Source: an uncultured Ruminococcus sp.
GTDB lineage: Bacteria > Bacillota > Clostridia > Oscillospirales > Ruminococcaceae
Reading direction: 5' to 3'
Assembly: GCA_902787365.1 (NCBI GenBank)
Contig: CADAGC010000006.1
Coordinates: forward strand, 1 to 40,181
Length of the DNA stretch: 40,181 nucleotides
Part shown: piece by piece, positions 21,061-39,715 of the stretch
Layout: every line of letters starts with the position of its first letter
How positions within the stretch are numbered: position 1 is the stretch's first letter
Program-made: the position numbers and the translations under genes
Notes under the pieces: generated by a model
Told to the model about the DNA's origin: nothing
The model's database searches: none
Seen by the model: the letters and a program-made list of their open reading frames with translations, nothing else

Positions 21061-24000
21061 TCATTCTTTGCCCAATGCCGAAAGATATGTCTTCGCATCT
21101 TCCAGCAGCTCCTGTGTCGTGTATAGCGGGAACAGACCGATCTTATTACTGTTGAAGTCTCTGATATATACCATATCGCCCTCAGTCGGCGCAGCAGCAA
21201 AGCTGTCGATACGATAGCGAACAGCAAAAACTGATGTATCCAGTACCCATGCCTGAGATCTCTCCCATACGGCAAAGACCCGGCTCTTGTCAGGTGAGAT
21301 CTTGGTCTCAAATAAAGATGCAGATGAACTGTCGCACGTAAAGATATTATTATCCATGTTTCTCGGGAAATCAAGACGGCAGCTTCTTCCCGTAAAGCCG
21401 TCGTTATTCATCTCATAAAGATTAGAGTCACGGCAAAGAACAGCAAAGGTATCCTCGCTGAGTGCTGCAACAGAAACAGGTTCCTGGCTTGTTCCCACAA
21501 GGGAAACGGTGCTTTTGAGACTGCCGGTATCCGCATCAAAAAATGAAACGGTGCGGTCGTTGAAGAATACGCCGACAGTAGAGCTGTTCTGCCAGAATAT
21601 CCGCTGGATCTTGCGCTTTACGGCATCTGATGTATCATAATCAAGCGTTATATCCTTATCCGATGAGAAGTCGTGAACGATCAGCGCTGTTCCCCCGTTC
21701 TCGTCATTGAATTTTGCATAGATTGCTCCCTTGCTTCCCGAAAAGGCATACATACTGTTAAGCAATTCCTTGTCTGCACGGGATGAGTCTTCCTTTTTAG
21801 TGCCCCACGTCTTTGCGTTTCCGTCAGAGGAGACGAACACAATATTCATTTCGGTTTTATCCAAATAGAATGCGCCGCCGCCCGAAGGGATAAGCCCCAC
21901 AGTAAAGGACATAGACTCAGATGCGCCCTTTACTTCTTCGGCCTTTGCATTATCGGGATCTATGCACATGGTTTTATCCGTATAGCTATCAGGGTCGGTT
22001 GCATTTACTATAAGCTGATCGCTGTCAGTAAACACAGCGCTGTTTATCTTGTGATTTTCAAGTGAAGTTATCTCTTTGCATTCTCCCGATGTCGAGTCAT
22101 ACAGGAACAGGTGATATGTAACTTCTGCATCGGCATTGTAGGTGCCGTTCGGATAATAGGTTGATACAACAGCAGCTTTTGTGCCGTCATTTGTTACTGC
22201 GATGACATCACGGTCATACATGAATTCGCCTGTGTTTATCTCCGTGAACCTTTCATTCTGCTGCGGATACTGGATATAGGCGGTGTTGGAGAAATCCTCA
22301 GCCGTTACGTATTTGCCACGGCTGTAGCTGCAAAGTGAAAAATTCGTATTGAATGTCTGCAATCTGTATGCGCAGTTGTCTGCATCGTTTCCTGTGATAT
22401 AGTTATTGACAATGAGCAGATATTCCTCGCCGTTTTTCAGCGTAAACATCACGGTGCCTTTTGTGCTGAATGATATATCTGTTATCTCTCCGTCAATGGG
22501 AAGATTCTTTATCAGCCTGCCCGTTTCATAATCCACAAATGAGATGGTGCAGTTAGTCGTCACAACAAGAATATCATGCTTAGTTTCGATCTGATCGGCG
22601 GGCATGAGGAATGTCTGCCCGTTGTTGCAGTAGTTGATTGGAAGATTAACACTCCATTTCTTCTCGGTTATATCCTTATCAAAGCGTGTAAGATCAGTGG
22701 TCGTATCGAAAGCAAAATTACACGCAGCGAGCAGCGGGTCGTTGCCGCTAAAGTTAAGATAGCAATCGTTCGTCGCTGACGGAGCGGAATAATCCACCTC
22801 GGCTTCACTAACGGCCTTCATAGCGTGTTTATTTATCGAATAAGCTTTCAGGGTATTGTCTTTTTCATAATAAATATAGATCACGCCGTCATGTATCGCT
22901 TTTATTTCAAAATCGTGTGACAGACCCGGTGAGTTGCTATCGAATTTCATTTTCACGGTATCTTCTATCTTGCCTGTCTCGCAGTTGATCATCTCAAGAT
23001 AGTAATCATTGCCCATGACTGCCGATCCGTCGAGCAATTCTTTTTTATTCAGATAGACACGCAGAATATGGTCTTCATACACCTTGATGTCATAGTAAGA
23101 ATATGCATTCTCCGATTTCGGAACGCTCCATTTCACCTCGCCCGTTGCACCGTCGATACGCCATAAGTCCCTGTCAGAATTATAAATGTATACATCCCCG
23201 CCTGTGCCGGGTTCTTCGTCGCTGACAGAGTGTACGAAGCATTTATAGATACGATTGTAAACAGGGCTGCTTTCATATCTGATATTGCCGGGAGAACTGG
23301 TATTTGTAAATACCGTGCCTGTCTTGTCAGTGTCTATATCGAAATAGGCCGTCAGTTTGTCTGAGCTTCCTTCTGCCGATGCAAATTCATCCTCATCGGC
23401 AGATATTTTCCTTATCAGCTCGCCTGTCTCGGCATTCCAGAAGTAGACGCCCGTAGCATCTGTTGAAACGATAGACTTGCCGCCGCCCATGAAAGAAAGC
23501 TGTTCCACAGCACATTCGTGTTTTAAAAACATACGAGGCGCAAGGTACGTATGATCAAACATACCGAGCTCACGGGAAAGTGCATATTCAGCTTCGGGAA
23601 GAACAGGCTTATCTTCGTCAATTGCGGGCAAAGCAGCAACAGCCTTTTCAATTGCAGGGATCAGATCGTTCTCTAAGAAGAGGTTTTCGGATTCTACGGC
23701 AAGATGTCTCGAATTCTCGACGAGAAGCTCACCGTTCTTGTTCTCGATCTCGGCATTCTGCACCTTGATCTGATCGTTCTGCTTCTGGATCTGCTTGTTC
23801 TTGCCGCTAATAGTCACAGCAGACGCAACGCTGATAATAGAAATAACAGAGAGAATACCCGACACTCCGGCGAATATCATACGCTTTCTTGCAGCTTCCT
23901 GCCGTTTTTCACGCTGATAAAGATCATTATAATCACATCCAAGCAAAGGTGCGGCAATACGAAGAGACTCATTTTTCAGCTTTTTCATTGATTCTTTTAG

Positions 24001-24462
24001 ACTATCCGCAACAATATTAGCCGCAAGAGGCTCAACCTCTTCTCTGACAGTGATCTCCTCGCCTTTTTCGTTCGTGGTGGTCACTTCGGTATAGGTGAGC
24101 ACATCAGGAAATGAATTCTGCGGATCACCGTTTACCAGCAGCGTGATGATGTTCGTATTTTTGTTATCGTGAAGCTCACGGAAACGTGTGATCTCCTGCA
24201 TACACCACTTAGACTCGGTATACTGCGGTGAACAGATCACGATAAGATACTCCGACGATTCAATTGCATTTTTAATGATCTCGCTGAGATCACTGCTGGA
24301 CTGCAATTCAGACACATCACGAAAAATACGCCATTTCTCCTTTTTTATACCCAGAGACTTTGGCGGCTTGTAAGTTTCAAGAATCTTTTGCAGCCTTTCG
24401 GCAGCGTGCATATCCGGCTCAATATGGCGATAGCTGATAAAAGCTTTGTACTTATAATCCAT
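21061..24462 (-). CDS. TIR-domain protein with transmembrane helix, coiled coil and beta-propeller
   Basis: 1133 residues. Residues 4-150 are a bacterial TIR domain: YKAFISYRH, RIFRDVSEL, then SPQYTESKWCMQEI, where E90 is in the position of the catalytic glutamate of TIR NADases. Residues 195-218 form one transmembrane helix and 219-260 a Gln/Asn-rich coiled coil. Residues about 310-1110 are a long run of beta-propeller blades (WD40/PQQ-like, e.g. VYFWNAETGELIRKI, YIYNSDRDLWRIDGATGEVKW, FVDYETGRLIKNL). By topology the TIR would be cytoplasmic and the propeller outside. First gene of a two-gene operon with the DHH phosphoesterase. A membrane sensor with a nucleotide-based output is inferred. 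Confidence 0.85.
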   Translation of the reverse strand: MDYKYKAFISYRHIEPDMHAAERLQKILETYKPPKSLGIKKEKWRIFRDVSELQSSSDLSEIIKNAIESSEYLIVICSPQYTESKWCMQEITRFRELHDNKNTNIITLLVNGDPQNSFPDVLTYTEVTTTNEKGEEITVREEVEPLAANIVADSLKESMKKLKNESLRIAAPLLGCDYNDLYQREKRQEAARKRMIFAGVSGILSVISIISVASAVTISGKNKQIQKQNDQIKVQNAEIENKNGELLVENSRHLAVESENLFLENDLIPAIEKAVAALPAIDEDKPVLPEAEYALSRELGMFDHTYLAPRMFLKHECAVEQLSFMGGGKSIVSTDATGVYFWNAETGELIRKISADEDEFASAEGSSDKLTAYFDIDTDKTGTVFTNTSSPGNIRYESSPVYNRIYKCFVHSVSDEEPGTGGDVYIYNSDRDLWRIDGATGEVKWSVPKSENAYSYYDIKVYEDHILRVYLNKKELLDGSAVMGNDYYLEMINCETGKIEDTVKMKFDSNSPGLSHDFEIKAIHDGVIYIYYEKDNTLKAYSINKHAMKAVSEAEVDYSAPSATNDCYLNFSGNDPLLAACNFAFDTTTDLTRFDKDITEKKWSVNLPINYCNNGQTFLMPADQIETKHDILVVTTNCTISFVDYETGRLIKNLPIDGEITDISFSTKGTVMFTLKNGEEYLLIVNNYITGNDADNCAYRLQTFNTNFSLCSYSRGKYVTAEDFSNTAYIQYPQQNERFTEINTGEFMYDRDVIAVTNDGTKAAVVSTYYPNGTYNADAEVTYHLFLYDSTSGECKEITSLENHKINSAVFTDSDQLIVNATDPDSYTDKTMCIDPDNAKAEEVKGASESMSFTVGLIPSGGGAFYLDKTEMNIVFVSSDGNAKTWGTKKEDSSRADKELLNSMYAFSGSKGAIYAKFNDENGGTALIVHDFSSDKDITLDYDTSDAVKRKIQRIFWQNSSTVGVFFNDRTVSFFDADTGSLKSTVSLVGTSQEPVSVAALSEDTFAVLCRDSNLYEMNNDGFTGRSCRLDFPRNMDNNIFTCDSSSASLFETKISPDKSRVFAVWERSQAWVLDTSVFAVRYRIDSFAAAPTEGDMVYIRDFNSNKIGLFPLYTTQELLEDAKTYLSALGKE

Positions 24463-25692: not shown

Positions 25693-25715
25693 TGGCAGGG
25701 GCAGAAGGGATCGAA
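25693..25715. other. attachment site, distal end of the element
   Basis: 23 bases identical to 39693-39715, the T-loop-to-CCA part of tRNA-Trp. The flanking bases differ on both sides (T versus C before, G versus C after), which bounds the repeat exactly. Confidence 0.9.
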
Positions 25716-26058
25716 GAGCCGATGATGCCTTTTATGCCTTCGCCTATCTTTTGTAAAACTGCGTAGAGACACCATTTTGCAAAAAGATGTATTAAGCACA
25801 TTTGCTTAACTTGCGGCAGTTTTTCATACCAATAAAGGACAAGTAAAGGACAAAACTCACGGCATACTCTTGTACAAAAGACTGCCCGTTATTCCATATC
25901 ATCTTGCTTTTCTAAAAGCATTAAAAATCATAAAATGGTCTTTCTTCTGATCATAGAAATACCGAAGCCGGCTTTTGTCAGCTTCTGTATTATCTTTTAA
26001 AAAGAATATATATCACATTTAAAAATCTATCCGTCAGCACTAACTAATACTCATCAAT
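25716..26058. other. non-coding left end of the element
   Basis: Short open frames here lack ribosome sites and resemble no protein. The only structured item is the arm-site repeat at 25831-25853. No promoter into the cargo operon is seen; that operon is read from the other end. Confidence 0.5.
25831..25853 (+). repeat. candidate integrase arm-type site, left
   Basis: 23 bases identical to 39604-39626, containing two tandem copies of TAAAGGACAA spaced by 11 bases. It lies about 115 bases inside the left attachment site in the same orientation as the right copy. Confidence 0.6.
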
Positions 26059-26613
26059 TCACGGAAACCACTCCTTCCGTGGCAGAGTATCCGTATAGTA
26101 AGGCAGTATCTTAGCAAAAAAGTCTTTCAGCGGCAGCGTGTGCCCCGAATGTCCTCCTCCGGAAATACGGCGAAAGCGTGCGTTGCCGAGTAGTTCTTCC
26201 GTAAACCTGTGGTCACCGAGCAGCTCATCGTTATCTCCAACGATACAGCTCACATTGCTGATGTCGATTTTTGAGAGCGAGCCGAACAGCCCGATCAGAG
26301 CCTTTGTATCCTTGCGTGGGCGAACATCACCGTCGAATGTCAGAAATGACATCAGAAAGGGATTGATAAGTATCACGGGACAATTATGCTGAGCACTCAG
26401 CACCGCCGCATAAAATCCACCGAGGCTCGTCCCGACAACAATGTCAGGGCGCTTGTCAGTAAGAATGTATTTCAAACCGCCGAGAATGTTCTCGGGCGAT
26501 ACGCTGTCATAGTCCAGCTCGGGTGCTATGATCTCGCACCCGAAAGGATCAAGCGCCTTGTATGCACTGTTCTTCGGGCTTCCGTGATAGCCGTGAATGT
26601 TCAGTATCTTCAT
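26059..26613 (-). CDS. small alpha/beta hydrolase (YqiA/UPF0227-like)
   Basis: 184 residues. The start MKILNIHGYHGSP has the HG oxyanion motif and the nucleophile elbow is GTSLGG (Ser about 83). An Asp sits in VGDNDELLG and the His in GGGHSGH. This order and size match UPF0227/YqiA esterases; substrate unknown. Its start overlaps the previous gene by 4 bases (26610-26613), so it is the last gene of the element's long leftward operon. Confidence 0.8.
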   Translation of the reverse strand: MKILNIHGYHGSPKNSAYKALDPFGCEIIAPELDYDSVSPENILGGLKYILTDKRPDIVVGTSLGGFYAAVLSAQHNCPVILINPFLMSFLTFDGDVRPRKDTKALIGLFGSLSKIDISNVSCIVGDNDELLGDHRFTEELLGNARFRRISGGGHSGHTLPLKDFFAKILPYYTDTLPRKEWFP

Positions 26614-26951
26614 ACGTTGTCCTCCGTTTTGTCAAGATAGTCTCTTATTTGCTTCTTGCTGACGTTTTGTATTTTGTAATTCATCATACGCTCGGCTTTG
26701 TCGAAAACCTGTTTTATACGCATTACGTTGGAATTACTTATTGCGGATATCTCCGTGAGGCTCATACCCTCGCAAATATGGAGCAATAGTACGCTGCGGT
26801 TGTGTTCGGGAAAAACATCAAGTATCTCACCAAACCGCCCGGCGGAGAGTGGCTGCTCGAGCTTGAAGTAATCATTTAGCATTGCTGCGTATTCATCTGT
26901 GATACTGTCAAGTTTTTCCGGAAGAGTAGCAAGTGTGCAGATACATTTCAT
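26610..26951 (-). CDS. sigma-70 region-4-like helix-turn-helix protein
   Basis: 113 residues. The middle (about 50-92) reads SVLLLHICEGMSLTEISAISNSNVMRIKQVFDKAERMM, the pattern of a sigma-factor region 4 helix-turn-helix; no region 2 is present, so it cannot be a full sigma factor. The N-terminus CICTLATLPEKLDSI resembles that of the 131-residue protein at 30737-31132 (CTLxTL, then LD). An AAAGGCGG site precedes the ATG. It could be a regulator or a protein-binding adaptor. Confidence 0.65.
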   Translation of the reverse strand: MKCICTLATLPEKLDSITDEYAAMLNDYFKLEQPLSAGRFGEILDVFPEHNRSVLLLHICEGMSLTEISAISNSNVMRIKQVFDKAERMMNYKIQNVSKKQIRDYLDKTEDNV

Positions 26952-27019
26952 AGGTACCGCCTTTCTGTCAATTAATGCTCTCTATTATCATTTTATATAA
27001 AAGAATAATAAAAATCTTC

Positions 27020-29017
27020 TCATCCTACCTTGAAGCCTATCCTGCAAGCCGGCTGGTTTTCATTATCTGATATTCCGATATTGAAGTTTGAAAAGTCCTC
27101 TGCTTTAAGTGTCAAGAGCTCGTCACCTGTCAGCGCTGAAAGGTCGCATTTTGAAAGCCTTAACGCCTGAGCAAGCTGCGCTTTCTCAACAAGATTTCTT
27201 GCATATCGTCCGTTACCGTGATTTGTTGTACCTACGGAGGCTTCAAATATCGGGATAAGTTTCTCATATGTATCATCTGCCATCTTATATCCGTTGTTCC
27301 CAGCGATATGCTTTGTTATATCATAAAGCTCCGACGGTGAATAATCCTTGAAATCGACATAGAATGATATGCGAGATCTCAGTCCCGGATTGCGGTCAAT
27401 AAAATCTTTCATTTCTTTTGGATATCCGGCAAAGATAACAACCATATCCTCTCGCTGATTCTCCATTTCCTGCACGATAGTATTGATAGCCTCATCTCCG
27501 AACAAACCATTGCGGTCATCGCAGAGTGAATATGCCTCATCAATAAATAGCACCGAACCCTGCGCTTTCTGAAACAACTGCTTGACCTGTACCGCTGTCC
27601 ATCCAACATATTTTCCGACAAGATCACTTCTCCCACATTCAATAATATTACCAACAGAGAGGATCTTGTTATCCTTCAATATCTGCGCAAATAGCCTTGC
27701 AACTGTGGTTTTTGCTGTGCCAGGATTACCGGTGAATACCATATGCATAGAGCGTTTTGCGTTAGGCATACCTCTGTCTGCAAAAGCCTTCTGCATTTTG
27801 GAATATATAACTGCCTGCTCGATGAGTTCCTTTACTTCTCTAAGACCTATCATCTCTGCAAGTTGGCGTGATGCCCTGCCTTCCTGTGTGAGCACAGTTT
27901 TACGGTCTAAACTCTTTTTGAATTCGGAGTACTGCGGATAGACCTGTGTTTTCAGTGCATTGGCATACCACTTTCTGTATGCCACACGAAGGTCATCGGA
28001 ATTGTATCCTGTGTCCTTTGCCACAAAAGATAAAAGCTCCTTATCAGCTTTTACATTGTCCTTACGACAGTAGGCTCGGAGTATTTTCTTTGCGTCATTG
28101 TTCATTGCAAGACGCTCATTTATCTCGATAAAGGTCAATTCGGGGAGTGAGTTTTTTATAGTTCCCGAAACACTGTCAAAATGATTGGGCATTAAGAAGA
28201 TCATAAGTGTATCCTGACAGTATTCCATAATTAGCTTTGTAAGCTGTTCAGTTAGAAAATTATATATGGCTCGATCTTCAGTTTCCCATGAGAAACTGTT
28301 TATATCCATAACAACAGTTCCGTATCTTGCTGCTTCAAAATATATATCCAGCGAATTTGCTACCCGTATTGTCATAGGCTTTATGACTGTACAGCGTTTC
28401 GATATCAATCTGCTATTTTCATACAACACGGAAACAAGGTCATCGCAAGCCTTGTTTGCATTACTGCATCTTATAATGTAGTGAACAGGATGACCTTTTG
28501 CTCCCACACACTTCGCCGGCTGTTTTATACGTTCTATCTCCGGCAGAAGATCATGATCATACAGACCAAAGATAGATTGGTTCTTTATTTCTTTATAAGG
28601 TATCAGATCTACAACTCTTTCCGTCAATTTCGGATTGCTACCGAACCTATGCATTCCGAATGGTTCGAGCATATTATCATCAAACACAAAATCCCTGATA
28701 TAATGGTTTTCCGCATATCTTCTCACAAATTCTACCGTAGTCTCACCAATAGTGTACTTACCAACAAATCCGCAGTTTTTAATAAGCGCAGATACTGCAT
28801 CATCAACGCTGCTCCCATTATTTATGATCATATTGATAACGATCCAAGCCCCATTGTAATCGCTGATAAAAGCAAAACTACTACCATAATTCTTTTCATT
28901 GAATCTGTTAAACCCGGTATTTATTTGATCAATAAACTCTTTGCTGTATTCTGTAAGTCCATTCTCATTAGGTGTGATAGTTTTGGAAATATCAAGTGTG
29001 ATTCTGTAACATATCAT
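27020..29017 (-). CDS. tandem AAA+ ATPase, CbxX/CfqX type, in the element
   Basis: 665 residues. The C-terminal AAA+ core has Walker A GNPGTAKT (430-437, Ala replacing the usual Gly before Lys), Walker B VLFIDE (489-494), FAGYPKEM sensor and NPGLRSR arginine-finger segment. Residues about 175-345 look like a second, decayed ATPase domain with no P-loop lysine. The first 110 residues are distinct. Domain order parallels the chromosomal ATPase at 13058-15016, but the N-terminal parts differ. The ATG overlaps the preceding gene's stop (ATGA). Likely remodels a complex formed by operon partners. Confidence 0.87.
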   Translation of the reverse strand: MICYRITLDISKTITPNENGLTEYSKEFIDQINTGFNRFNEKNYGSSFAFISDYNGAWIVINMIINNGSSVDDAVSALIKNCGFVGKYTIGETTVEFVRRYAENHYIRDFVFDDNMLEPFGMHRFGSNPKLTERVVDLIPYKEIKNQSIFGLYDHDLLPEIERIKQPAKCVGAKGHPVHYIIRCSNANKACDDLVSVLYENSRLISKRCTVIKPMTIRVANSLDIYFEAARYGTVVMDINSFSWETEDRAIYNFLTEQLTKLIMEYCQDTLMIFLMPNHFDSVSGTIKNSLPELTFIEINERLAMNNDAKKILRAYCRKDNVKADKELLSFVAKDTGYNSDDLRVAYRKWYANALKTQVYPQYSEFKKSLDRKTVLTQEGRASRQLAEMIGLREVKELIEQAVIYSKMQKAFADRGMPNAKRSMHMVFTGNPGTAKTTVARLFAQILKDNKILSVGNIIECGRSDLVGKYVGWTAVQVKQLFQKAQGSVLFIDEAYSLCDDRNGLFGDEAINTIVQEMENQREDMVVIFAGYPKEMKDFIDRNPGLRSRISFYVDFKDYSPSELYDITKHIAGNNGYKMADDTYEKLIPIFEASVGTTNHGNGRYARNLVEKAQLAQALRLSKCDLSALTGDELLTLKAEDFSNFNIGISDNENQPACRIGFKVG

Positions 29018-29448
29018 ATTATTTTCTCCTTCTTCACCCTCTCATCAAATACCATATCAAATCCCTCCGGATAAATAACACTTGTTTCTCCGCCCGATCT
29101 GATAACAAGCTCGCCTGACGCAAACTCTTTGTCGGGAATGCTTTTAAGCAGAGCATTAATAAACACGCTGCAGGTAAAGTATTCGCCCCATAGCTTATTG
29201 CTTTTGGCTATCTCAAATACTTCTCCCTCTGATCCGCAAAGCACGAAGCTAACGCTGTGCAGCTCGTTTAAAAGCCTTATGTCCTCCAGAGCAAGCGTGC
29301 CGTTTGCTGCAATAGCCGAAAAATAGCCCCATGTTCTTTTGTACAGGTCTTTGAAGCTGTCGAGAGTTAGGGGCTTTTGTGTTATCATATCCGACAGCTC
29401 ACGCCAGCCGGCTATAAGGCTATTTCTTTGAATATCATTAATCGTCAT
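29014..29448 (-). CDS. uncharacterised 144-residue protein
   Basis: No family recognised. It is soluble and mixed alpha/beta, with segments LIAGWRELSDMI, FKDLYKRTWGYFSAI and VSFVLCGSEGEVFEIA, and a Lys-rich C-terminus. It overlaps both neighbours by 4 bases (WYL regulator before, AAA ATPase after). Such tight coupling suggests it works with the ATPase, for example as a substrate adaptor; that is inference. Confidence 0.7.
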   Translation of the reverse strand: MTINDIQRNSLIAGWRELSDMITQKPLTLDSFKDLYKRTWGYFSAIAANGTLALEDIRLLNELHSVSFVLCGSEGEVFEIAKSNKLWGEYFTCSVFINALLKSIPDKEFASGELVIRSGGETSVIYPEGFDMVFDERVKKEKII

Positions 29449-30500
29449 ACTGTATCCTTACCGTATCTTTTGGCTGCCTCACGCAGCGTCTTTGCTATAT
29501 CATTCCTCAGGCTTTCCGGGAAAAGCACCTCAACGCAGTCGCTGTACTGCAAAGCCCAGTGTAGCATTGCCTTTTCGCTTATGCGCACCCTGACCTCTAT
29601 CGTGTCTTTGTCTATCTCGATTATGCCTGCCTTGCTGCCGAACCAGTCAACGATGTCATTCATTATGTATCTTGGGCAGCGGAAAACGCACACGCTCACC
29701 TCGCCGCCCCACATATTCGGGTGCTCGCTTATGTAGTCGGATAGGTTTATGCCGTTTTTATAGCCTTTAAGCGAGCGCACGCTCTTTGCCTTGCGCTCTT
29801 GCAGGCTGATGTTCTTTATCCTGTCAACTCTGAATGAGAGCAGCTTGTCGTGGTCAGCAGAGCTGCAAAGCAGATAATACCGCCCGTTTAGCGACACGAG
29901 CTTGTAGGGACTTATGACATACAGCTTGACCTTGCCGTTGTCATCAAGGCGTGGGTGTGGTTTTATATCGGTATCATAATCGTAATAATTGAAGCTCACC
30001 TGAACGCCTGCCGATATAGCCTCACAAAGTACCGATATAACATAAAACAGCGACTTGTTTGCAGGGCGCTCGACAACGGCGGAATAGACGGACGAATGCT
30101 TTTTGACAAACTCGGGACTGCCGAATGATACAACCTTGTTGATAAGGTCTTTGCACTGCTTTGCGGGAAGATAGTTTGAAAAGAGCAGGCTGTCTATCAT
30201 CACCTGCAGCTCGCTCTCGTCAAATCTTACCTCGGGGGAATAATACCAGTTTGTGTGGATAAGCTCTGTCGTGCCGTTTTTGCCTGCTCTTTCAAGCTCA
30301 TCATATTCAAGCGGGAAACCTGCTTCAAGCAGCTTTGACAGGTTATGGCGTATCGTCTTGCGGTCAAGCACCATACCGTATTCCTGCTCGACAAGCTCGG
30401 CTATGCGCTGCTGGGTTATCCGCTCAGATGCACTTGTGAACCTTTCAAGCACCAGCAGGATATAGATTATTGCGAGCTTTTTAGGCTGGCTTACGCTCAT
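29445..30500 (-). CDS. WYL-domain transcriptional regulator
   Basis: 351 residues. Residues 1-70 are a winged helix-turn-helix (TQQRIAELVEQEYGMVLDRKTIRHNLSKLLEAG). Residues about 150-250 form the WYL domain with VISPYKLVSLNGRYYLLC and LSFRVDRIKNI, followed by the WYL C-terminal extension (EVRVRISEKAMLHWALQYSDCVEVLFPESLRNDI). WYL regulators bind nucleic acid or nucleotide ligands and often control defence islands. Its position inside the cargo operon suggests it regulates that operon. Confidence 0.88.
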   Translation of the reverse strand: MSVSQPKKLAIIYILLVLERFTSASERITQQRIAELVEQEYGMVLDRKTIRHNLSKLLEAGFPLEYDELERAGKNGTTELIHTNWYYSPEVRFDESELQVMIDSLLFSNYLPAKQCKDLINKVVSFGSPEFVKKHSSVYSAVVERPANKSLFYVISVLCEAISAGVQVSFNYYDYDTDIKPHPRLDDNGKVKLYVISPYKLVSLNGRYYLLCSSADHDKLLSFRVDRIKNISLQERKAKSVRSLKGYKNGINLSDYISEHPNMWGGEVSVCVFRCPRYIMNDIVDWFGSKAGIIEIDKDTIEVRVRISEKAMLHWALQYSDCVEVLFPESLRNDIAKTLREAAKRYGKDTV

Positions 30501-30511
30501 ACAAATTCCCC

Positions 30512-30715
30512 CTATCGTGATTTTCTCTGCATTTTGTAAAATTCCGACAGCATCTTGTCATGCTCATATTTTGCTCGTATCTCGTCCATTTCTTTTGCTA
30601 TCCTCGCAGCGGCTGAGAGCGGCTTCTCACCCCTCATACGCTGACGCACCTTTTCCTTTTCACGTTCAAGCTCACGGGCTTTCATACGTTCATTCTGTGT
30701 AAGACCATATTTCAT
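30512..30715 (-). CDS. 67-residue charged coiled-coil protein
   Basis: ATG 30715 is preferred because GGAGG lies 8 bases upstream; an in-frame GTG at 30724 lies within that site. The peptide is almost all Arg, Lys, Glu and Met helix (NERMKARELEREKEKVRQRM, then ARIAKEMDEIRAKYEHDKML). No family recognised. It ends 11 bases before the WYL gene and is co-transcribed with it. Its charge pattern suggests protein or nucleic-acid binding. Confidence 0.65.
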   Translation of the reverse strand: MKYGLTQNERMKARELEREKEKVRQRMRGEKPLSAAARIAKEMDEIRAKYEHDKMLSEFYKMQRKSR

Positions 30716-30736
30716 AAAATGCACCTCCGTTTAAGT

Positions 30737-31132
30737 TTACGGGTAATCACTGAGCTCGGGCTCGTCCTCGACCTCGACTATTATATCGGGGTCTGTGCCG
30801 GGGCTTATGTTATGCTCATTCATATATGACCTTATATAGTCATCAAAGTTGATGTACATAATACCCTCAAAATCATCATTCTCGTCAACATGAACTATGC
30901 CGTCATCAAGAAACAGGAATTCCTGCTCCTCCTCGTCATATTTTTCTTCTTGTATCTCACGCAGGATTATGCCGAGCGAAGGCACACGCACTGAATATTT
31001 ACAGAACATATAACGGTAATTGTCATTATACCCTTTGAGATCGCATTTATAGCTGCCGATATTGCCACCAAAGAGCTTTTCCATATGATCAAGAGTATCT
31101 GTAAGGGTTGAGAGGGTGCAGTAGAAATTCAT
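30737..31132 (-). CDS. uncharacterised acidic 131-residue protein
   Basis: The start MNFYCTLSTLTDTLDHMEKL is followed by an acidic domain with EEKYDEEEQEFLFLDDGIVHVDENDDFEG and an acidic tail. No family recognised. The first 15 residues resemble those of the sigma-4-like protein later in the same operon. An AAAGGAT site lies before the ATG. It follows the nuclease gene by 48 bases. Confidence 0.65.
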   Translation of the reverse strand: MNFYCTLSTLTDTLDHMEKLFGGNIGSYKCDLKGYNDNYRYMFCKYSVRVPSLGIILREIQEEKYDEEEQEFLFLDDGIVHVDENDDFEGIMYINFDDYIRSYMNEHNISPGTDPDIIVEVEDEPELSDYP

Positions 31133-31180
31133 AGGGAGATCCTTTCGTCTTTTTCATCAAGTCTGCATTTATAAAAACAA

Positions 31181-32308
31181 TTAGAGATTTAATTCTTGTA
31201 TTGCTTTATCTGCACATTTATACCATTTAGTGAAATCATCTTTTTTAAGTTCTTTACTAAGCTTGTCTAACGCTTTATTAATTCCGTCAATGCTTGAAAA
31301 AACACACTTGTCAATGGTTCTGTCAACTAAAGTAATAGTATTTTTATATTCTATTGGTTTATTTGTTTTATCATCTATAAAGAATTCTTTTAGCTTTTCA
31401 TATTGTGATTTGTTGGGTTCAAGATGAATAACTACATGCAGTCCACTGGCAAATGCAAAACGTTTCTGCATTTCGCAAGTAGCTTCTGGACATTCCGGAA
31501 AAACTTCAATATGAAAATCCAGAGTACGCCATTTACTGTCTCTTTTTATTATTTGCCAGTACCCTGCCTTAATATTATCCGATTTAAAATCCGAACTGTT
31601 TTTATCAAGTCCTTTTTTTATATATTCATCTATACTATCAACATAATTCTTATAAGCTGATTCTGCATCTTTAATTATAGAAATGCTATTATAATAAGCT
31701 TCTATATACTCGGACATTTCAGGAAACTCACACACAAGATCAACCCCCACATATTTAATAAACTCATCTCTGAGCAATTTGGTTATTTTATTATCTTCAT
31801 CAACATCAAAAGATTCCATATCAAGATGCAATGTGTTATATGTTACTATTTGAAATATTTTGTCCTCGGGACAAGAACCATTGAGTTCGGGTTTAAGATA
31901 TATACAAATAAGCTTTTTATTCTCCTTATTATATTCATTCAGACTGCTCGCATAATCTTTAGTCTGGTTTGGCTGCTCGGACGACCACAACTTGTTCTCT
32001 ATTGCAATGATTTGATTTGAGGTTTCGATAAGCAGATCAATTCTCCTACCATTACTAAATACATATTCAGACCGTACATCTACTTTATCGGATCTGTCAT
32101 AGTTGCTTTCTTCGTTTACACATTTCAAAAAGCAATCTATCATTCCATACCAACCGCCGTTCCTGTTTGGATCAAGAAGAAAAGAAAGCCATTGAGTAAT
32201 GTAAATCTCCTTATCTTTTATCCCAAATATTTCAGGAAGTGTTATTGTAGTGCTTTTCTTTAATTCAGATAACTTGTTACAAATATTTATAAAATCTGTA
32301 TGGCTCAT
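31181..32308 (-). CDS. PD-(D/E)XK nuclease-family protein
   Basis: ATG 32308 is chosen because AAAGGAGG lies 6 bases upstream; the adjacent ATG at 32311 is too close. Residues about 80-120 carry the nuclease core: IDLLIE (Asp near 91), IIAIENKLW (Glu and Lys of the ExK motif) and a downstream Q-x6-Y. This fits the PDDEXK_4-type family of about 370 residues. Target unknown. The gene is very AT-rich (14 G or C in the 60 bases from 31621), unlike its operon neighbours, a sign of separate transfer. First gene of the eight-gene cargo operon. Confidence 0.82.
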   Translation of the reverse strand: MSHTDFINICNKLSELKKSTTITLPEIFGIKDKEIYITQWLSFLLDPNRNGGWYGMIDCFLKCVNEESNYDRSDKVDVRSEYVFSNGRRIDLLIETSNQIIAIENKLWSSEQPNQTKDYASSLNEYNKENKKLICIYLKPELNGSCPEDKIFQIVTYNTLHLDMESFDVDEDNKITKLLRDEFIKYVGVDLVCEFPEMSEYIEAYYNSISIIKDAESAYKNYVDSIDEYIKKGLDKNSSDFKSDNIKAGYWQIIKRDSKWRTLDFHIEVFPECPEATCEMQKRFAFASGLHVVIHLEPNKSQYEKLKEFFIDDKTNKPIEYKNTITLVDRTIDKCVFSSIDGINKALDKLSKELKKDDFTKWYKCADKAIQELNL

Positions 32309-32402
32309 CATATTCCTCCTTTAAGTCTTTCCGTTTCCTTACTGTGCTTATATCATAACATATGCTATGGGCAAAAAACTCCTCATCATATCAACTAATG
32401 AC

Positions 32403-32431
32403 ATTATACCACACATTCGGCTCAATGTCCG
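32403..32431 (-). promoter_or_regulatory. promoter of the eight-gene cargo operon
   Basis: On the minus strand CGGACA (32426-32431), 17 bases, TATAAT (32403-32408) with TGG before it. The inverted repeat TTCGG/CCGAA (32416-32433) overlaps the -35 region. The leader is about 90 bases. Confidence 0.6.
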
Positions 32432-32438
32432 AAGATAG

Positions 32439-32467
32439 GGGAGAATTTCTGCAAAATTCTCCCTTTT
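32439..32467 (+). terminator. terminator-like hairpin
   Basis: GGGAGAATTT (32439-32448), loop CTGCA, AAATTCTCCC (32454-32463), then TTTT. No plus-strand gene lies upstream, so it may insulate the two divergent units. Confidence 0.55.
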
Positions 32468-32505
32468 ACACAAACCGAAAGAGCCTCCTTTGTATAAAAA
32501 GCAAA

Positions 32506-32548
32506 AACAGCAAACCGCCCTAAACGAGCGGCCTGCTGTTATTTTTTT
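32506..32548. terminator. second insulating terminator
   Basis: AACAGCA...CCGC (32506-32518) pairs with GCGG...TGCTGTT (32528-32540). Seven T residues follow on the plus strand, and a T-rich tract flanks it on the minus. Confidence 0.6.
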
Positions 32549-32627
32549 ATGTGAGGTTTTCTCCCCATAAGATATGCTATAATATGCTCATAAGCAAGAA
32601 AATAATCGAGAACTCCGGAGGTGTCTT

Positions 32628-33095
32628 ATGAACGTTAGTATCTATTCAAGAGAGGCGATCGAGGCGGTGATAGCACAGGGGGATTTTCCCGAAAAAACGG
32701 CTGTCATCAGCTTTTATGACCCTGCACTCAAGCACCTTGACAAAAGCTACACTCACATTGATTACAGCGGCGTGTGCGAGAGCGTTTTTTACAGCGAGCT
32801 TGATGATCTCGACCTTTACTACCTTGCCGATAAGGGACTGACCTATGAAACGTTTTTCCCTGAGGCTGATGCTATGGCAAGGTTTATCTACGATGCTTTT
32901 GATAAGGGCATGGACATCATCTGCCAGTGCGAATACGGACAAAGCAGAAGTGCCGCCTGCGCCGCTGCGATACTTGAACATTTTTATCACACGGGCATAT
33001 CTGTGTTTGCAAATTATGATTACTACCCCAATCAGGTGGTATATCATAAGGTGTTTGATGCGCTGGAGAAGGTCAGTGGAGAAAGGAAAAGCTAA
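32628..33095 (+). CDS. dual-specificity/tyrosine phosphatase-like protein
   Basis: 155 residues from ATG after GGAGG. The motif CQCEYGQSRSAACAAAI contains a C-x5-R phosphatase P-loop (C101 to R107) followed by Ser. This is the signature of cysteine-based phosphatases in a minimal fold. Many bacterial proteins of this layout are annotated only as hypothetical; substrate unknown. A TATAAT at 32578-32583 with TGC before it probably drives it. It ends two bases from the convergent transglutaminase-like gene. Confidence 0.75.
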   Translation: MNVSIYSREAIEAVIAQGDFPEKTAVISFYDPALKHLDKSYTHIDYSGVCESVFYSELDDLDLYYLADKGLTYETFFPEADAMARFIYDAFDKGMDIICQCEYGQSRSAACAAAILEHFYHTGISVFANYDYYPNQVVYHKVFDALEKVSGERKS

Positions 33096-33097
33096 AA

Positions 33098-34015
33098 CTA
33101 TCCTGTTATCTTTATGACCTTTGCGGATCTGTTTTTGACATCATCAGGCATATGTCCGACAGTCCAGCCTTCGCCTGTGCTTTCAACATAGAAATACTTT
33201 TTGCCGTCGATCTCAAAATACGATCCGGTTATTGAGTCTTCTCCCATAATGCCGATAGCCACATGGTCATCATAATCAAGCAGACAAGTGCCGAAATTAA
33301 GCTCTCTGAGTATTCCGACAAGCAGAATGCTCGTGTCTTCGCAGTCACCTCCGAAATCATACAGCGTTTCAAGAGGATATTTGGGGAACTCTTCTTTTCC
33401 GGTCGAATCTATGTCATATACATATTTTATAGCCTGCACAAAGCTGATAGCTTCCAATGCCGTCTGGCTCCCATCATATCCGGCACCGTCAGCAAGATTT
33501 TTAAGGCTGTCGGCAATTGATTTGAGTATCTCCCGGTTGTTGCTGTCATCTATGTATTTCTGATAGTCTTTTTCGTCGTAATACCTTGCAAGCGAGTGAT
33601 AATACTCATACATATATTTATCCAGGTGCATGGTAATGGAAAAGATATGCATCTGATCGTGTGATGTCCATTCAATCTTTACATCTTTATATTCGGGCGT
33701 ATGTGTCTGCTTATAATCCGGAATGCGGTCGTCCTTGTAAATCTGTACATCTTCCTGCTCGGGAATCTCGACAGTTTTTCTTTTGGCAGTCTTTTTGGTT
33801 GTCGTTTTCTTTTTGCGTGTAGTTACTTGTGGTGCAGTTGTTTGCACAGGCTGTTCCGGCTGAACCGGTTGAGTAGTCTTTGTCTGTTTATTATCAGAAA
33901 AGAATTCTGTTTCAGGCAGGTAATCAAGAAAGCTCTCGTCAGATAGAGTAACTTGTGCATACAGCCCTAAGACCAAGACAAGTAAAACAAGCAGCAGGAT
34001 AGATCTGTTAGACAT
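33098..34015 (-). CDS. membrane-anchored transglutaminase-like cysteine protease-fold protein
   Basis: 305 residues. Residues 5-22 are an uncleaved signal anchor (ILLLVLLVLVLGLYA). Residues 42-85 are a Thr/Pro/Lys-rich linker. Residues about 120-300 hold a transglutaminase-like domain with Cys225 in FGGDCEDTS, His251 in DDHVAIGI and an acidic residue in FYVESTGEGW, the catalytic triad order. The catalytic domain is predicted outside the membrane. It follows the helicase gene by 51 bases, so the two are probably co-transcribed. Natural substrate unknown; protein cross-linking or peptide cleavage are family activities. Confidence 0.8.
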   Translation of the reverse strand: MSNRSILLLVLLVLVLGLYAQVTLSDESFLDYLPETEFFSDNKQTKTTQPVQPEQPVQTTAPQVTTRKKKTTTKKTAKRKTVEIPEQEDVQIYKDDRIPDYKQTHTPEYKDVKIEWTSHDQMHIFSITMHLDKYMYEYYHSLARYYDEKDYQKYIDDSNNREILKSIADSLKNLADGAGYDGSQTALEAISFVQAIKYVYDIDSTGKEEFPKYPLETLYDFGGDCEDTSILLVGILRELNFGTCLLDYDDHVAIGIMGEDSITGSYFEIDGKKYFYVESTGEGWTVGHMPDDVKNRSAKVIKITG

Positions 34016-34066
34016 TGATCATCATTACCTCCGTTCTAAATAATGCTTTTTGCAGAGTATATTCAG

Positions 34067-36529
34067 CTAAATATCCCTCGTATATCTGCACCCCTTAGTA
34101 TAATTTGAACACCCGTAAAACGCACCATATCTGCCGTTCTTTCTTATGACTTTTCCGCCGCATAACGGGCATTCAAATCGCTCGTTCTTCATCTCTTTTT
34201 CATACCTTTTGTGAAGCTCTGATACAAATTCCGATTCGTGATTCTCGATAGTCAGTAAGAAAGCTTTTTGCTTTGCTCTTGTAAGCGCAACATAGAAAAG
34301 CCGCCGCTCCTCTGAATAAGGATAATCGTCATGCCCCTCCAACAACAGTTTTAAAATAGGTGCGTCCTGTATCTTGCTCGGAAAGCCTGATCTGGTATTC
34401 TTGTTGTTGAGAATGAATACATAGTCTGCCTGCAACCCTTTTGATTTATGAGCAGATAAAAACTGAATCTTAAGATCGGGACGATTTGAATATCTTACAT
34501 TTACCATTCCGCATGAATTATCATATCCGTATGTCAGCATACTGTTGTCCTTGAGCATATTTGCATCATAATTGTATCTGCCTATAAGAAATACATTACT
34601 GTTCTGTGGCAGATCATTCATACGCTTTAGCATAAATTCAACTGCAAATCTTTCATTGTAGGCATTTATCTCACCCAGAGGAAAGCCATTGCCGACGTTT
34701 TTAGCTTTTATTTCCTTTTTTATCTGCATAGGGTTTTGCATAATAAATCCGCCTGAGATTTCTATCAGAGTTTTAGGAAATCTGTATGTTGTCTCGATCT
34801 TGCTTTTTTCGGTTGCACCCCAGAATCTTTCAAAGTCTATTATATACCCAATGTCACTTCCTGCAAATCTGTAAATGCTCTGCCAGTCATCACCTACACA
34901 AAACAGCTTGTAATAGTTTGAATCTCTGAGAGCCTTTAAAAGATTGAACCTTGACTTTGCAAGATCCTGGTATTCATCAACTATCACATATTTGTAAGGG
35001 TTGTTGTATTTGCCCTGTCTTACATACTCTGCCGCAAGGTTTATCATATCGTTGAAATCTATCTGACCATTCTTTTGCAGATAATCATTGTAAGCATTAT
35101 ATATCGGCTCGATAAGATCAAGGATCATCTCGTTGATTTTGCAAAACGGCGAATTGCGGTTCAATTCTCTTACGGTAGCTACTGTATAATTGTTGCTCTT
35201 TATAAGGTTGATAACAGTTGCGAACAGCTCGTATATACCGCCAAGAACATTGTTATCTTTGGTCGTTTCCTCCCAAACTTTATCAAGAGGCTTTTCTTCA
35301 AGTACGACTCCGCATTCTGTCAGCTTTTTTCTTAATGAATCAAGAAGTATGTCCTCCATTTTCTCATAGGCATACACTTCTATCATCTTTGTGTTGTTCT
35401 GTTTGTGAAGCTCACGCTTCCACGCAATAGATTCATTATATGTCTGTGAAGCAGTTTTTCCGAGTGCCGCACTAAAATATGCAGGCACTTCGTTTTTTCT
35501 GTTTATACCAAAGTATTCAATGTAAATATCATGATCGGGCAAATAGAAATCAGGATGATACTGTCTGTGCTCTATATCTGCGGTATCGAATTTATATGCC
35601 TGTTCATATACATAATTAACTCCGTTGAGTGTAAGGAAATTTGCAATGTCCATCTCACCATAGCTTTTGACTGTTTCACCGTTTATGGTGGTTGGTGGAT
35701 TTAAACGCAGGTATTCATTGTATTCTCTTTCGTTATTGAATGAGAATTCTGATCTGTAAAGCACTCTGTAAAAGTTTATGTACCTGAGCATCAGCTCCAT
35801 ATATGCTCTGTCATTCAGCAGACGAGCAATGGTTTCTTTTATAAACTTGCTCATTTGCAGATCACAGATGTCGGGCTTTTTCCCTTGCACAGATGCAATT
35901 ATATTCAGCCCCAATTTGTGAAAAGTCGAAGCATCAATAGACTTGCCGGTCTCATTATTTATCCTAATGTTCATTTCAGATGCAGACGCATTTGTAAATG
36001 AAAGCACCAGTATATCTTCGGGCAAGCATATGCCTGATAAAAGCATATACTTTATCCTGCCGACAACAGTTGTGGTCTTGCCTGTTCCGGCACCGGCAAT
36101 AACAAGGTGATTGTTTGCGTCTTTTATAATGCACATAAGCTGCTGCCTGTCAAGAGGCTTGCCTTCGACGTTACCTATAAGAGCACTCGCAGCAGCTATT
36201 TTCTTTTCTAATACTGCCGTGTTATGCTTTGCAACTTTTCCTCGAAAAGTATCGGTTTCATTTTTGAGCTTGGCGTGTTCTGTAACAAGTGTCTCGTAAT
36301 TCTGAGCTTTCCTTAATATTAAACTGCTTTCCGATACAGTTATAAGCGCCTGTTTCATGTTTTCGTGTATGTATCTTGCACGCTCAGGAATAATCTCTTT
36401 ATCTTTATCATCAAAGATCTTAGCTGTATTTTCAAGTGTGCTGCGGCACAGGGATATTTTATTATTGCAGTCATCTTCTCTTTGTTTTATCTTGTTACGA
36501 TGTTTTTCTATGCGTTTTTTTATTAACAC
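34067..36529 (-). CDS. UvrD/Rep superfamily I helicase (helicase IV-like) with C-terminal zinc finger
   Basis: 820 residues from GTG 36529, 9 bases after AGGAGG. Residues 1-110 are coiled coil. Q-motif DRQQ (127-130), Walker A GAGTGKT (146-152) and LSFTNASASEM mark domain 1A. An insertion at about 285-400 has E292, PDF (326-328) and IEYFG (337-341), a PD-(D/E)XK-like pattern known from helicase-IV-type proteins. VDEYQD, GDDWQSIYRF, AHKSKGLQADYVF and VALTRAKQ complete the helicase. The last 35 residues form a four-cysteine topoisomerase-type zinc finger (CPLCGG, CSNYTKGC). It unwinds DNA; in a mobile element it may serve defence or element maintenance. Confidence 0.9.
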   Translation of the reverse strand: MLIKKRIEKHRNKIKQREDDCNNKISLCRSTLENTAKIFDDKDKEIIPERARYIHENMKQALITVSESSLILRKAQNYETLVTEHAKLKNETDTFRGKVAKHNTAVLEKKIAAASALIGNVEGKPLDRQQLMCIIKDANNHLVIAGAGTGKTTTVVGRIKYMLLSGICLPEDILVLSFTNASASEMNIRINNETGKSIDASTFHKLGLNIIASVQGKKPDICDLQMSKFIKETIARLLNDRAYMELMLRYINFYRVLYRSEFSFNNEREYNEYLRLNPPTTINGETVKSYGEMDIANFLTLNGVNYVYEQAYKFDTADIEHRQYHPDFYLPDHDIYIEYFGINRKNEVPAYFSAALGKTASQTYNESIAWKRELHKQNNTKMIEVYAYEKMEDILLDSLRKKLTECGVVLEEKPLDKVWEETTKDNNVLGGIYELFATVINLIKSNNYTVATVRELNRNSPFCKINEMILDLIEPIYNAYNDYLQKNGQIDFNDMINLAAEYVRQGKYNNPYKYVIVDEYQDLAKSRFNLLKALRDSNYYKLFCVGDDWQSIYRFAGSDIGYIIDFERFWGATEKSKIETTYRFPKTLIEISGGFIMQNPMQIKKEIKAKNVGNGFPLGEINAYNERFAVEFMLKRMNDLPQNSNVFLIGRYNYDANMLKDNSMLTYGYDNSCGMVNVRYSNRPDLKIQFLSAHKSKGLQADYVFILNNKNTRSGFPSKIQDAPILKLLLEGHDDYPYSEERRLFYVALTRAKQKAFLLTIENHESEFVSELHKRYEKEMKNERFECPLCGGKVIRKNGRYGAFYGCSNYTKGCRYTRDI

Positions 36530-36593
36530 ATCCGGCAGCCTCCTGTGGATATATAATTATTCTAACGCCTTGATTATTTAGCATCTTTATTCA

Positions 36594-36622
36594 ATTATAC
36601 AGCACAAATTATAAAAAGGCAA
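36594..36622 (-). promoter_or_regulatory. promoter of the helicase operon
   Basis: On the minus strand TTGCCT (36617-36622), 17 bases, TATAAT (36594-36599), about 65 bases before the GTG start. Confidence 0.65.
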
Positions 36623-37240: not shown

Positions 37241-37295
37241 AGGAGGAAAAGACAGCGTACATTAAAACCATACAAAACAAAAATCAGAGAGGAGA

Positions 37296-38174: not shown

Positions 38175-38227
38175 GGGATATTTATAGAAGCACGTCATAA
38201 AAAAAGTAGAGCAAAAAGTATAGGCTT

Positions 38228-38313: not shown

Positions 38314-38346
38314 TATGCCAAATACACATCTCAAAGGAGGATATAA

Positions 38347-39642
38347 ATGGCTACCATAAGAAAAAGAGGAAATACATATCAGATCAGAGTCAGTTGCGGA
38401 TATGATGTAAATGGAGATCAGGTCATACAAACTATGACATGGAAGCCCGACGAGGGAATGTCAAAGAAGCAGATTGAAAAAGAACTGAATCGTCAGGCAG
38501 TAATGTTTGAGGAAGATGTTATGGGCGGACAAGTGACCGTAACAAAAAAGTTTCAGACGTTTGCTAAGGAATGGTTCAAGGAGTATGCAGAGATCAAGCT
38601 AAAAACGCAGACGCTGCGCAATTATCATAATTATGAAAAGCGTACATATGAAGCGCTTGGACATCTGCGAATGGACAAAATAACACCTCGGACAATACAG
38701 AAGTTTGTCAGCGACTTGTGCAGCGCTAAGAAATACAATTCAAAAGGCGAAGTAACAGGAACTCTGTCACCAAAAACAGTCAAGCATTACATTTATTTCA
38801 TTTCAAGCATATTTGACTATGCCGTAAAAATGCAGCTTGTAAAGGACAATCCCTGCCGGAATGTAACGCTCCCGACGCAGGAGGACAAAGAACGTGACAT
38901 TTATACTCTCGAAGAGGTGCAAAAAATGCTCTCCCTTTTTGAAAAGGAGAGCGAGGCGAATTATAAATACACTATATTCTTTACTCTTGCAGCATTCACC
39001 GGACTCAGGCGAGGCGAGCTTCTCGGACTTGAATGGAAAGATTTTGACTGGGACACCCGCCTTATGAAAGTAGTCAGGACATCGGAATGGACAAAGGAAA
39101 AGGGCATTTATACAGATACCCCTAAAACAAAATCAAGTCGAAGAGTCCTGAAACTGCCGTCTGATCTCTGTACAAAGCTGAAAGAATACAAGCAATGGCA
39201 GGACAACTACAAAGCAAGCATAGGGAATAAGTGGGTAGAAAATGACAGACTATTCACCAAGTGGAACGGTGAGCCTATGGGTATGCGCTCGCCATACAAA
39301 TACTATGAAAAGTTCTGCAAGCGCACAGGGATGCGGTTCGTTAACATTCATTCTTTCCGTCATTTCAATGCTACGGCTATGATCCTAAACGGCATAGATG
39401 TCAAGACCGTGCAAACGTGTTTGGGCCACAATGATGCGAACACAACGCTTTCTATATATGCTCATTCATTCCAGGAAGCTCAGGCTCATGCTATGGACAG
39501 TGTTGCGAACAGCATCTACGGGAAAATCAATCCGACAAATATTCAGTCAGAACAGAGCGACGCAAACTGCGTAAAACAACGTTTTCAGATCAAAGTCACA
39601 ACAAATAAAGGACAAGTAAAGGACAACACAGAAAATGCGTAA
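38347..39642 (+). CDS. int: tyrosine recombinase / integrase
   Basis: 431 residues. Residues 1-65 are an arm-binding domain (AP2-like, MATIRKRGNTYQIRVSCGYD). Residues 68-175 are the core-binding SAM-like domain. Residues 185-385 are the catalytic domain with Arg in FTGLRRGEL, Lys in TPKTKSSRR, HSFRH (H335, R338), LGHND (H361) and the nucleophile Y371 in SIYAH. All catalytic residues are intact, so the element may still be mobile. The protein resembles Tn916-type integrases. The last codons encode the arm-site repeat (39604-39626), and the gene ends 51 bases from the tRNA-Trp attachment site. Confidence 0.94.
   Translation: MATIRKRGNTYQIRVSCGYDVNGDQVIQTMTWKPDEGMSKKQIEKELNRQAVMFEEDVMGGQVTVTKKFQTFAKEWFKEYAEIKLKTQTLRNYHNYEKRTYEALGHLRMDKITPRTIQKFVSDLCSAKKYNSKGEVTGTLSPKTVKHYIYFISSIFDYAVKMQLVKDNPCRNVTLPTQEDKERDIYTLEEVQKMLSLFEKESEANYKYTIFFTLAAFTGLRRGELLGLEWKDFDWDTRLMKVVRTSEWTKEKGIYTDTPKTKSSRRVLKLPSDLCTKLKEYKQWQDNYKASIGNKWVENDRLFTKWNGEPMGMRSPYKYYEKFCKRTGMRFVNIHSFRHFNATAMILNGIDVKTVQTCLGHNDANTTLSIYAHSFQEAQAHAMDSVANSIYGKINPTNIQSEQSDANCVKQRFQIKVTTNKGQVKDNTENA
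39604..39626 (+). repeat. candidate integrase arm-type site, right
   Basis: 23 bases identical to 25831-25853, with two TAAAGGACAA copies, lying inside the 3' end of the integrase gene and 66 bases from the attachment site. Confidence 0.6.
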
Positions 39643-39692: not shown

Positions 39693-39715
39693 TGGCAGGG
39701 GCAGAAGGGATCGAA
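39693..39715. other. attachment site, tRNA-proximal end
   Basis: 23-base repeat of 25693-25715 forming the 3' end of the intact tRNA-Trp gene. Confidence 0.9.

Follow-up and report, generated by a model that had tools for sequence, protein, structure and literature searches.

The window analyzed here is a stretch of 40,181 nucleotides from an uncultured Ruminococcus sp. (GCA_902787365.1, contig CADAGC010000006.1, positions 1 to 40,181), in which an earlier note had marked an eight-gene operon as a possible undescribed defense or island-control system. The eight open reading frames (ORFs) run on the minus strand from 32311 to 26059 in the order nuclease, P2, P3, WYL regulator, P5, AAA+ ATPase, P7, and P8 (Table 1). 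As described in that note, the genes are tightly packed: 4-base overlaps occur at three junctions (WYL/P5, P5/ATPase, and P7/P8), and the remaining gaps are 48, 12, 11, and 68 bases. However, the eight genes are not the complete set, as a divergent gene for a Cys-phosphatase-like protein, P9, had been missed, and they are not a fixed unit, as the nuclease, the ATPase, and others vary between loci.

Table 1. Positions of the operon, its divergent neighbor, and the ends and integrase of the surrounding element in the window (aa, amino acids).
Feature	Position	Strand	Basis or remark
Attachment (att) repeat of 23 bp that duplicates the tRNA-Trp 3′ end	25693..25715		Exact repeat of 39693-39715
P8, 184 aa, UPF0227/YqiA-like alpha/beta hydrolase	26059..26613	-	PF05728 9.5e-9, above cut-off
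P7, 113 aa, sigma-70 region-4-like (weak)	26610..26951	-	Pfam 17.5 bits; NCBIfam best 4.7e-6; below cut-off
AAA+ ATPase, CbbX/SpoVK/EccA kind, 665 aa	27020..29017	-	N-domain (~380 residues) followed by a single AAA+ domain (383-642)
P5, 144 aa	29014..29448	-	Related to C-terminal part of DnaA-like ATPases (L062, L068, L092)
WYL-WCX regulator, 351 aa	29445..30500	-	PF13280 1.8e-11; PF25583 1.9e-5
P3, 70 aa, function unassigned	30512..30724	-	Window and G113 only, among loci compared
P2, 131 aa, function unassigned	30737..31132	-	P2-like part fused to phosphatase in L060 (= L096)
PDDEXK_4 nuclease, 376 aa, exchangeable first gene, putative effector	31181..32311	-	PF14281 1.1e-14, above cut-off
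Divergent intergenic region	32312..32627		Promoter-like site; motif TTTTTTGCCCATA at 32366-32378, minus strand
P9, 155 aa, divergent Cys-phosphatase-like protein of dual-specificity phosphatase (DSP) type	32628..33095	+	CEYGQSR (Cx5R); DSPc 8.6e-4, below cut-off
Tyrosine recombinase (integrase) of element	38347..39642	+	PF00589 1.5e-26
att repeat inside tRNA-Trp (39693-39768, minus strand)	39693..39715		Exact repeat of 25693-25715

Predicted enzymes and regulator of the operon

The nuclease, regulator, and hydrolase named in the earlier note all scored above their Pfam cut-offs (PDDEXK_4, 55.3 bits; WYL, 44.3 bits, with WCX, 25.3 bits; UPF0227, 35.8 bits). The nuclease also matches the PADLOC candidate PDC-S26 (6.5e-21), and its D...ExK residues are conserved in four of four aligned full-length relatives; both the PD-(D/E)XK core residues and the family score for PDC-S26/PDDEXK_4 are present. 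A fragment in L064, the sixth sequence in the alignment, is without the D...ExK domain. The GTSLGG motif of P8 is invariant in 5/5 aligned sequences, as is the Cx5R motif of P9 in 6/6. The WYL regulator has a 56.9% identical relative on a plasmid of R. albus 7; its PADLOC matches are generic CRISPR-associated WYL models, and a DNA-binding domain was matched only weakly (HTH_33, E 0.17). The other five operon proteins, all but the nuclease, the regulator, and the ATPase, have no PADLOC match.

The ATPase had been read as a tandem AAA protein, but it has a single AAA+ domain behind an N-domain of its own. A second AAA+ domain was rejected by comparing profiles of the N-half and the AAA-half, built from five sequences (probability 0.2%). 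Within the N-half, Pfam gave only weak matches below cut-off, for example AAA_11 at 172-223 (E 0.015), while a GxPVxY motif is invariant in 4/4 aligned sequences. The AAA (61.1 bits, 426-533) and AAA_lid_6 (50.2 bits) domains, both above their Pfam cut-offs, are shared with CbbX, SpoVK, and EccA, which are described as dedicated chaperones with narrow targets and differing N-domains (PMC10659427). Likewise shared with the clade, as characterized in that source, are a GY after the sensor-1 strand, an N that precedes the first R finger by four residues, and a GR..R stretch at sensor 2. The best PDB match is CbbX (9.9e-52), and PADLOC gave a weak IetA match over the AAA domain (2.3e-8). With these three as its best-scoring AAA+ families and AAA_lid_6 present, the ATPase belongs to the CbbX/SpoVK/EccA clade. 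In contrast, its N-domain is its own, its context is a WYL/nuclease operon, and it stays below all three NCBIfam equivalog cut-offs (SpoVK 1.2e-77, EccA 1.3e-66, CbbX 6.7e-66); thus, it is none of SpoVK, EccA, or CbbX proper.

For P5, the kinship with the tail of DnaA-like ATPases suggests that this protein may serve an AAA+ partner, either DnaA-like or CbbX-like. Its structural model is helical (predicted local distance difference test score, pLDDT, 69) and has no PDB match at E ≤ 0.001; a search of plasmids gave no relative. A DnaA-like ATPase with a P5-like tail (L062, 989-2023) and a NADAR-DnaB fusion (L068, 10695-11867) each lie near a WYL gene.

The operon as cargo of a tRNA-Trp element

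The operon lies in a mobile island, as the earlier note had supposed. The att repeats in tRNA-Trp, together with the integrase, define an element of 14,023 bp, both repeats included (window 25693-39715), of which the operon is cargo. Inside each element end is a second repeat (25828-25853 and 39601-39626; 25/26 bp identical). The element further encodes a UvrD-type helicase, which carries a zinc ribbon of topoisomerase type, and has a MobC/NikA-like gene and a helix-turn-helix gene. Among the scanned element proteins (small ORFs scanned in part), no relaxase match was found.

A related element is present in G113, a second species of the same genus. Window positions 25972-31161 and 32504-34109 are 98.4% and 99.1% identical to G113, whereas core DNA is 77%, 78%, and 79% identical over stretches of 10.0, 5.7, and 1.0 kb, respectively. 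The G113 integrase is 93.8% identical over 1513 bp, and both element-end sequences are present (96% and 88%), joining at a single att copy. From this we infer that the element, or this part of it, passed between the two lineages recently. Between the G113 integrase and the shared block lie relaxase, HsdM, and RlaP genes. An IS3-type insertion (L005, 12991-14335), with a relative in R. albus 7 that carries this name, follows directly after the G113 operon and splits the homology at window 25972-25975.

Replacement of the nuclease gene

Within the near-identical block, the nuclease gene has been exchanged. PDDEXK_4 is absent from G113 at E ≤ 0.001; in its place, between P9 and P2, are a 313-aa gene in the P9 direction and a 132-aa gene in the operon direction. 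A first sign that the nuclease has a separate origin is its low GC content (31-34%, compared with 46-50% for the WYL gene).

The 313-aa protein has no Pfam family above cut-off. It is related to a protein in L062 (3e-113) and weakly to one in L006 (3e-5 to 1e-4); the L062 relative in turn weakly matches an L068 protein (1.3e-5), which itself matches Adenine_glyco (7.6e-5, below cut-off) and the PADLOC OGG model (5e-5). On the basis of this chain of relationships, a DNA-glycosylase-like identity for the 313-aa protein is reasonable but not firm. A PDB search with the L006 glycosylase-like protein was uninformative (best E 0.89). The 132-aa protein gave no match in the PDB; it may have an alkyltransferase-like fold, although no search supports this. 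Helix-hairpin-helix proteins suspected by eye in L105 (7601-8338) and L077 (6997-7704) were unsupported by Pfam and were not counted.

The divergent promoter region

Upstream of the nuclease gene is a promoter-like site with an extended -10 element (CGGACA-17-TATAAT with TG before the -10; 32431-32403), and further upstream is a hairpin of 15 pairs with a T tail (32540-32506). A 141-bp segment containing the promoter-like site (32334-32474) is conserved at 87% in G113, where it lies 5′ of the 132-aa gene. A single promoter may drive the operon, as the earlier note assumed; since our scan gave 19 promoter-like sites against 17.4 in shuffles, the assignment stays at this level. WYL regulators of the BrxR/CapW type recognize inverted repeats at the promoters of their own loci; the window has a perfect 9-bp inverted repeat (loop 7) farther upstream than its promoter, which was not found in G113.

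G000 and G113 each have a single site with the pattern TTTTTTRCCCATA, upstream of the operon in both cases, and two of the three sites in G071 lie within the cluster of that genome. With one extra degenerate letter, L105 has three sites, two before WYL and one before P2. Across 12 genomes, 11 sites were counted against seven for the reversed pattern, so close to this control that the number means little; 4/11 lie in clusters of the set, and 7/11 are without a set gene within 1.5 kb. We regard TTTTTTRCCCATA as an operator candidate, nothing beyond.

Recurrence of the gene set

Several related loci combine the same families in different orders. In G083 (L124), which belongs to another genus, genes for WYL, PDDEXK_4, and AAA proteins are consecutive. 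A P9-P2 fusion in G282 (L060; L096) is divergent from WYL, nuclease, P5, and P8 genes; in G071 (L006; L093), P9 is divergent from WYL, P2, glycosylase-like, PDDEXK_4, P7, P5, and P8. L090 has P5, P8, and nuclease, and R. flavefaciens XPD3002 (L092) has WYL, an ADP-ribosylglycohydrolase (ARG), P8, a DnaA-like ATPase with a P5-like tail, and P9. Plasmid pRUMAL01 of R. albus 7 carries WYL, a leucine-rich repeat protein, a GIY-YIG-like protein (below the Pfam cut-off; the name is from the record), P8, and a double P9, and a plasmid of L. eligens carries WYL, one further gene, and AAA. At the level of sequence, these comparisons establish a recurring chassis of predicted WYL, Cys-phosphatase-like, YqiA-like hydrolase, P5, and P2 proteins, sometimes with the AAA+ ATPase. 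Likewise, the chassis pairs with an exchangeable putative nucleic-acid enzyme, PDDEXK_4 here and a DNA-glycosylase-like or GIY-YIG-like protein elsewhere.

The plasmid loci bear on the possibility that the operon controls its own element, with the WYL and sigma-4-like proteins governing excision, transfer, or rival exclusion and the nuclease guarding the niche of the element rather than the cell. The location of the operon in an att-bounded element with an integrase and a MobC/NikA-like gene fits this explanation, as does the presence of two likely regulators in one operon. However, WYL-AAA and WYL-hydrolase-phosphatase clusters also occur on the L. eligens and R. albus 7 plasmids, so the gene set is not bound to this integrase, and effector turnover would better suit an arms race. 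We consider element control improbable.

Co-occurrence was quantified in 396 genomes of the family, searched with four models; pairs were scored within 5 kb. WYL was found at 46 places in 42 genomes, PF14281, which was rare, at 17 places in 16, P9 at 36 places in 27, and the AAA N-domain at 21 places in 18. The pairs numbered six for nuclease-WYL (0.010 expected), five for nuclease-P9 (0.008), nine for P9-WYL (0.021), five for AAA N-domain-WYL (0.012), two for AAA-nuclease (0.005), one of which is the window, and two for AAA-P9. Expected counts, 0.005-0.021 each, assume random placement and a genome size taken as 2.4 Mb; even when per-genome counts are kept, they reach only 0.025-0.115. Counting a weaker WYL protein (2e-19, L129) and P9-type proteins (L127, L133), nine of the 17 nuclease places have WYL or P9 adjacent. 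Furthermore, a scan of genome contigs with P8 gave 17 loci, seven with other set genes. Thus, the WYL, PDDEXK_4, Cys-phosphatase, AAA N-domain, hydrolase, and 144-aa families do co-occur elsewhere, as the earlier note had proposed to check, in varying subsets and in other genera.

These counts also address whether the genes are a passenger patchwork, that is, cargo brought together by a shared hotspot and promoter but serving no joint function. The GC content of the nuclease gene, far below that of its neighbors, would agree with a patchwork; so would the variation of gene sets by locus and the lack of the rest at most WYL places. Against it stand the excess of pairs within 5 kb, the P9-P2 fusion, and the linkage of the nuclease to WYL or the hydrolase in differing gene orders (window, L060, L090, and L124). 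A patchwork appears very unlikely.

Comparison with known systems

As reported, BrxR-family WYL proteins repress defense loci and are located beside diverse defense systems (PMC9122601), and WYL domains have been predicted to be sensors of nucleotides or nucleic acids (PMC4012209). As in BrxR/CapW loci, the regulator has WYL and WCX domains, its gene is closely packed with those of effectors, and the locus lies on a mobile island. In contrast, its WYL gene is gene four rather than heading the locus, and PADLOC found no BREX or CBASS gene among the eight. PDC-S26 is a single-gene label; the window nuclease and its relatives in L006, L060, L090, and L124 match these models, whereas here the nuclease belongs to an operon, of which it is an exchangeable component.

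Iyer et al. (2022) interpret as conflict systems those neighborhoods in which ARG is accompanied by a regulator (WYL or Nudix), a Cys-phosphatase, proteins with the restriction-endonuclease fold, and variable modules (PMC9503650). The window shares with these systems, as set out there, the WYL regulator, a Cys-phosphatase-like protein, a restriction-endonuclease-fold effector, and a conserved core with variable modules. The combination of a DSP-type Cys-phosphatase with WYL was also found here, given the invariant Cx5R motif, a DSPc score below cut-off, and the P9-WYL pairs counted above. However, the window adds the AAA+ ATPase, the YqiA-like hydrolase, and the sigma-4-like protein, and a Pfam scan of 20 window proteins gave no match to ADP-ribosylglycohydrolase PF03747. 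The regulator, phosphatase type, and nuclease fold are shared with ARG-centred systems, but no ARG was found among the proteins scanned; we do not assign the operon to a named system. In our reading, it would be a variant of WYL-regulated conflict systems, distinct from BrxR/CapW and ARG-centred systems by the features tested. This agrees with the earlier note, which recognized no named system; none in PADLOC fits the gene set. A literature search of titles and abstract openings found no description of this gene set, which is not proof of absence, and the name PDC-S26 was not found in the literature searched.

An alternative is counter-modification or repair, in which the phosphatase and the hydrolase, together with the exchangeable protein (glycosylase-like or nuclease), would remove damage or ADP-ribose-type marks put on host molecules by phage or stress. 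The XPD3002 locus, where the ARG gene lies beside hydrolase, DnaA-P5, and phosphatase genes, speaks for it, as do the NADAR protein of L068 and the neighborhoods with ARG, WYL, Cys-phosphatase, and restriction endonuclease presented by Iyer et al. (PMC9503650). On the other side, no ARG, NADAR, or macro family was detected among the scanned window proteins at the E limits used. We consider this alternative unlikely.

Interpretation

The operon is probably, although far from certainly, an inducible conflict system on a tRNA-Trp integrative element, directed most likely against phages or competing elements. A defense role is suggested because of the association of the genes, the turnover of the effector, and the nature of the predicted enzymes. 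The evidence consists of the pair excess, the P9-P2 fusion, the row of genes in G083, the nuclease replacement within a near-identical block, the PDC-S26 matches, and the HsdM and RlaP genes between the G113 integrase and the block. Published work adds that BrxR-family WYL repressors neighbor diverse defense systems (PMC9122601) and that CbbX-clade ATPases are dedicated chaperones (PMC10659427).

Several observations weigh against this interpretation. Within 5 kb, 33 of the 46 WYL places are without nuclease, P9, or AAA N-domain, and WYL is missing near 27/36 P9 places and 16/21 AAA places. In the stretches examined, eight of the 17 nuclease places, some on 4-kb contigs, are without WYL or P9, and 10/17 P8 loci are without another set gene. 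AAA-nuclease pairs are rare, and PDC-S26 is a PADLOC candidate label, not a demonstrated function. Moreover, the models were partly seeded from such neighborhoods. Without the seed genomes, four nuclease-WYL pairs are left (the WYL genes of G000 and G071 are rows of the WYL model; with these excluded, 4/14 nuclease places, in G062, G083, G146, and G282), along with two nuclease-P9 pairs (G282 and G335), three P9-WYL pairs (G113, G163, and G282), and three AAA-WYL pairs (G017, G059, and G113, the last a near-identical copy).

If the operon is a conflict system, the WYL protein might repress both the operon and the divergent phosphatase gene until it binds a nucleic-acid fragment or nucleotide formed during infection. 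The nuclease would then cut the DNA of the invader or of the host. Through its N-domain and with P5, the CbbX-type ATPase could be a chaperone dedicated to assembling or activating the effector, while the phosphatase and hydrolase might process a signal or strip a modification.

More tentatively, and with less than even confidence, we propose a platform immunity system of Ruminococcus-related clostridia. In this proposal, a WYL sensor, Cys-phosphatase, hydrolase, P5 adaptor, and CbbX-type chaperone would be armed with varying effectors (the nuclease, the glycosylase-like protein with its 132-aa partner, or the GIY-YIG-like protein), the ATPase would be an immune-effector chaperone, and the effector exchange would have been observed between two species whose tRNA-Trp elements are of one kind. 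If true, this would provide a defined and transferable set of genes whose shared regulator and helpers serve different DNA-acting effectors, and how immune systems swap weapons yet keep their sensor would become testable. It would also extend to immunity the roles of CbbX-type AAA+ chaperones, whose known settings are Rubisco, type VII secretion, and the spore wall.

Small proteins and neighboring genes

The sigma-4-like assignment of P7 in the earlier note stands as far as weak matches exist, but both are below cut-off; a search of plasmids and a scan of viral contigs gave no relative of P7. Weak sigma-4-like tails, also below cut-off, are fused to P9 in L064 and L133. The P2 model, of moderate confidence like that of P5 (pLDDT 73), has no PDB match at E ≤ 0.001. 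P2 and P7 share a similar N-terminal stretch, M..CTL.TL...LD.

The window has another SpoVK/CbbX-like AAA+ gene at 13058-15022, in DNA 77% identical to G113; its product is 41-42% identical to the operon ATPase over the AAA domain. A further relative of the ATPase (44.8% identity over 97% of length) is encoded at 2393-4348 of MT838628.1, an unannotated record of 5 kb that is labeled 'Bacteriophage sp.' and comes from human feces. Outside the element, a gene for a 1133-aa TIR protein with beta-propeller-like matches below cut-off (21061-24462) adjoins one for a DHH-family protein (19455-21008), and the two are perhaps another conflict pair.

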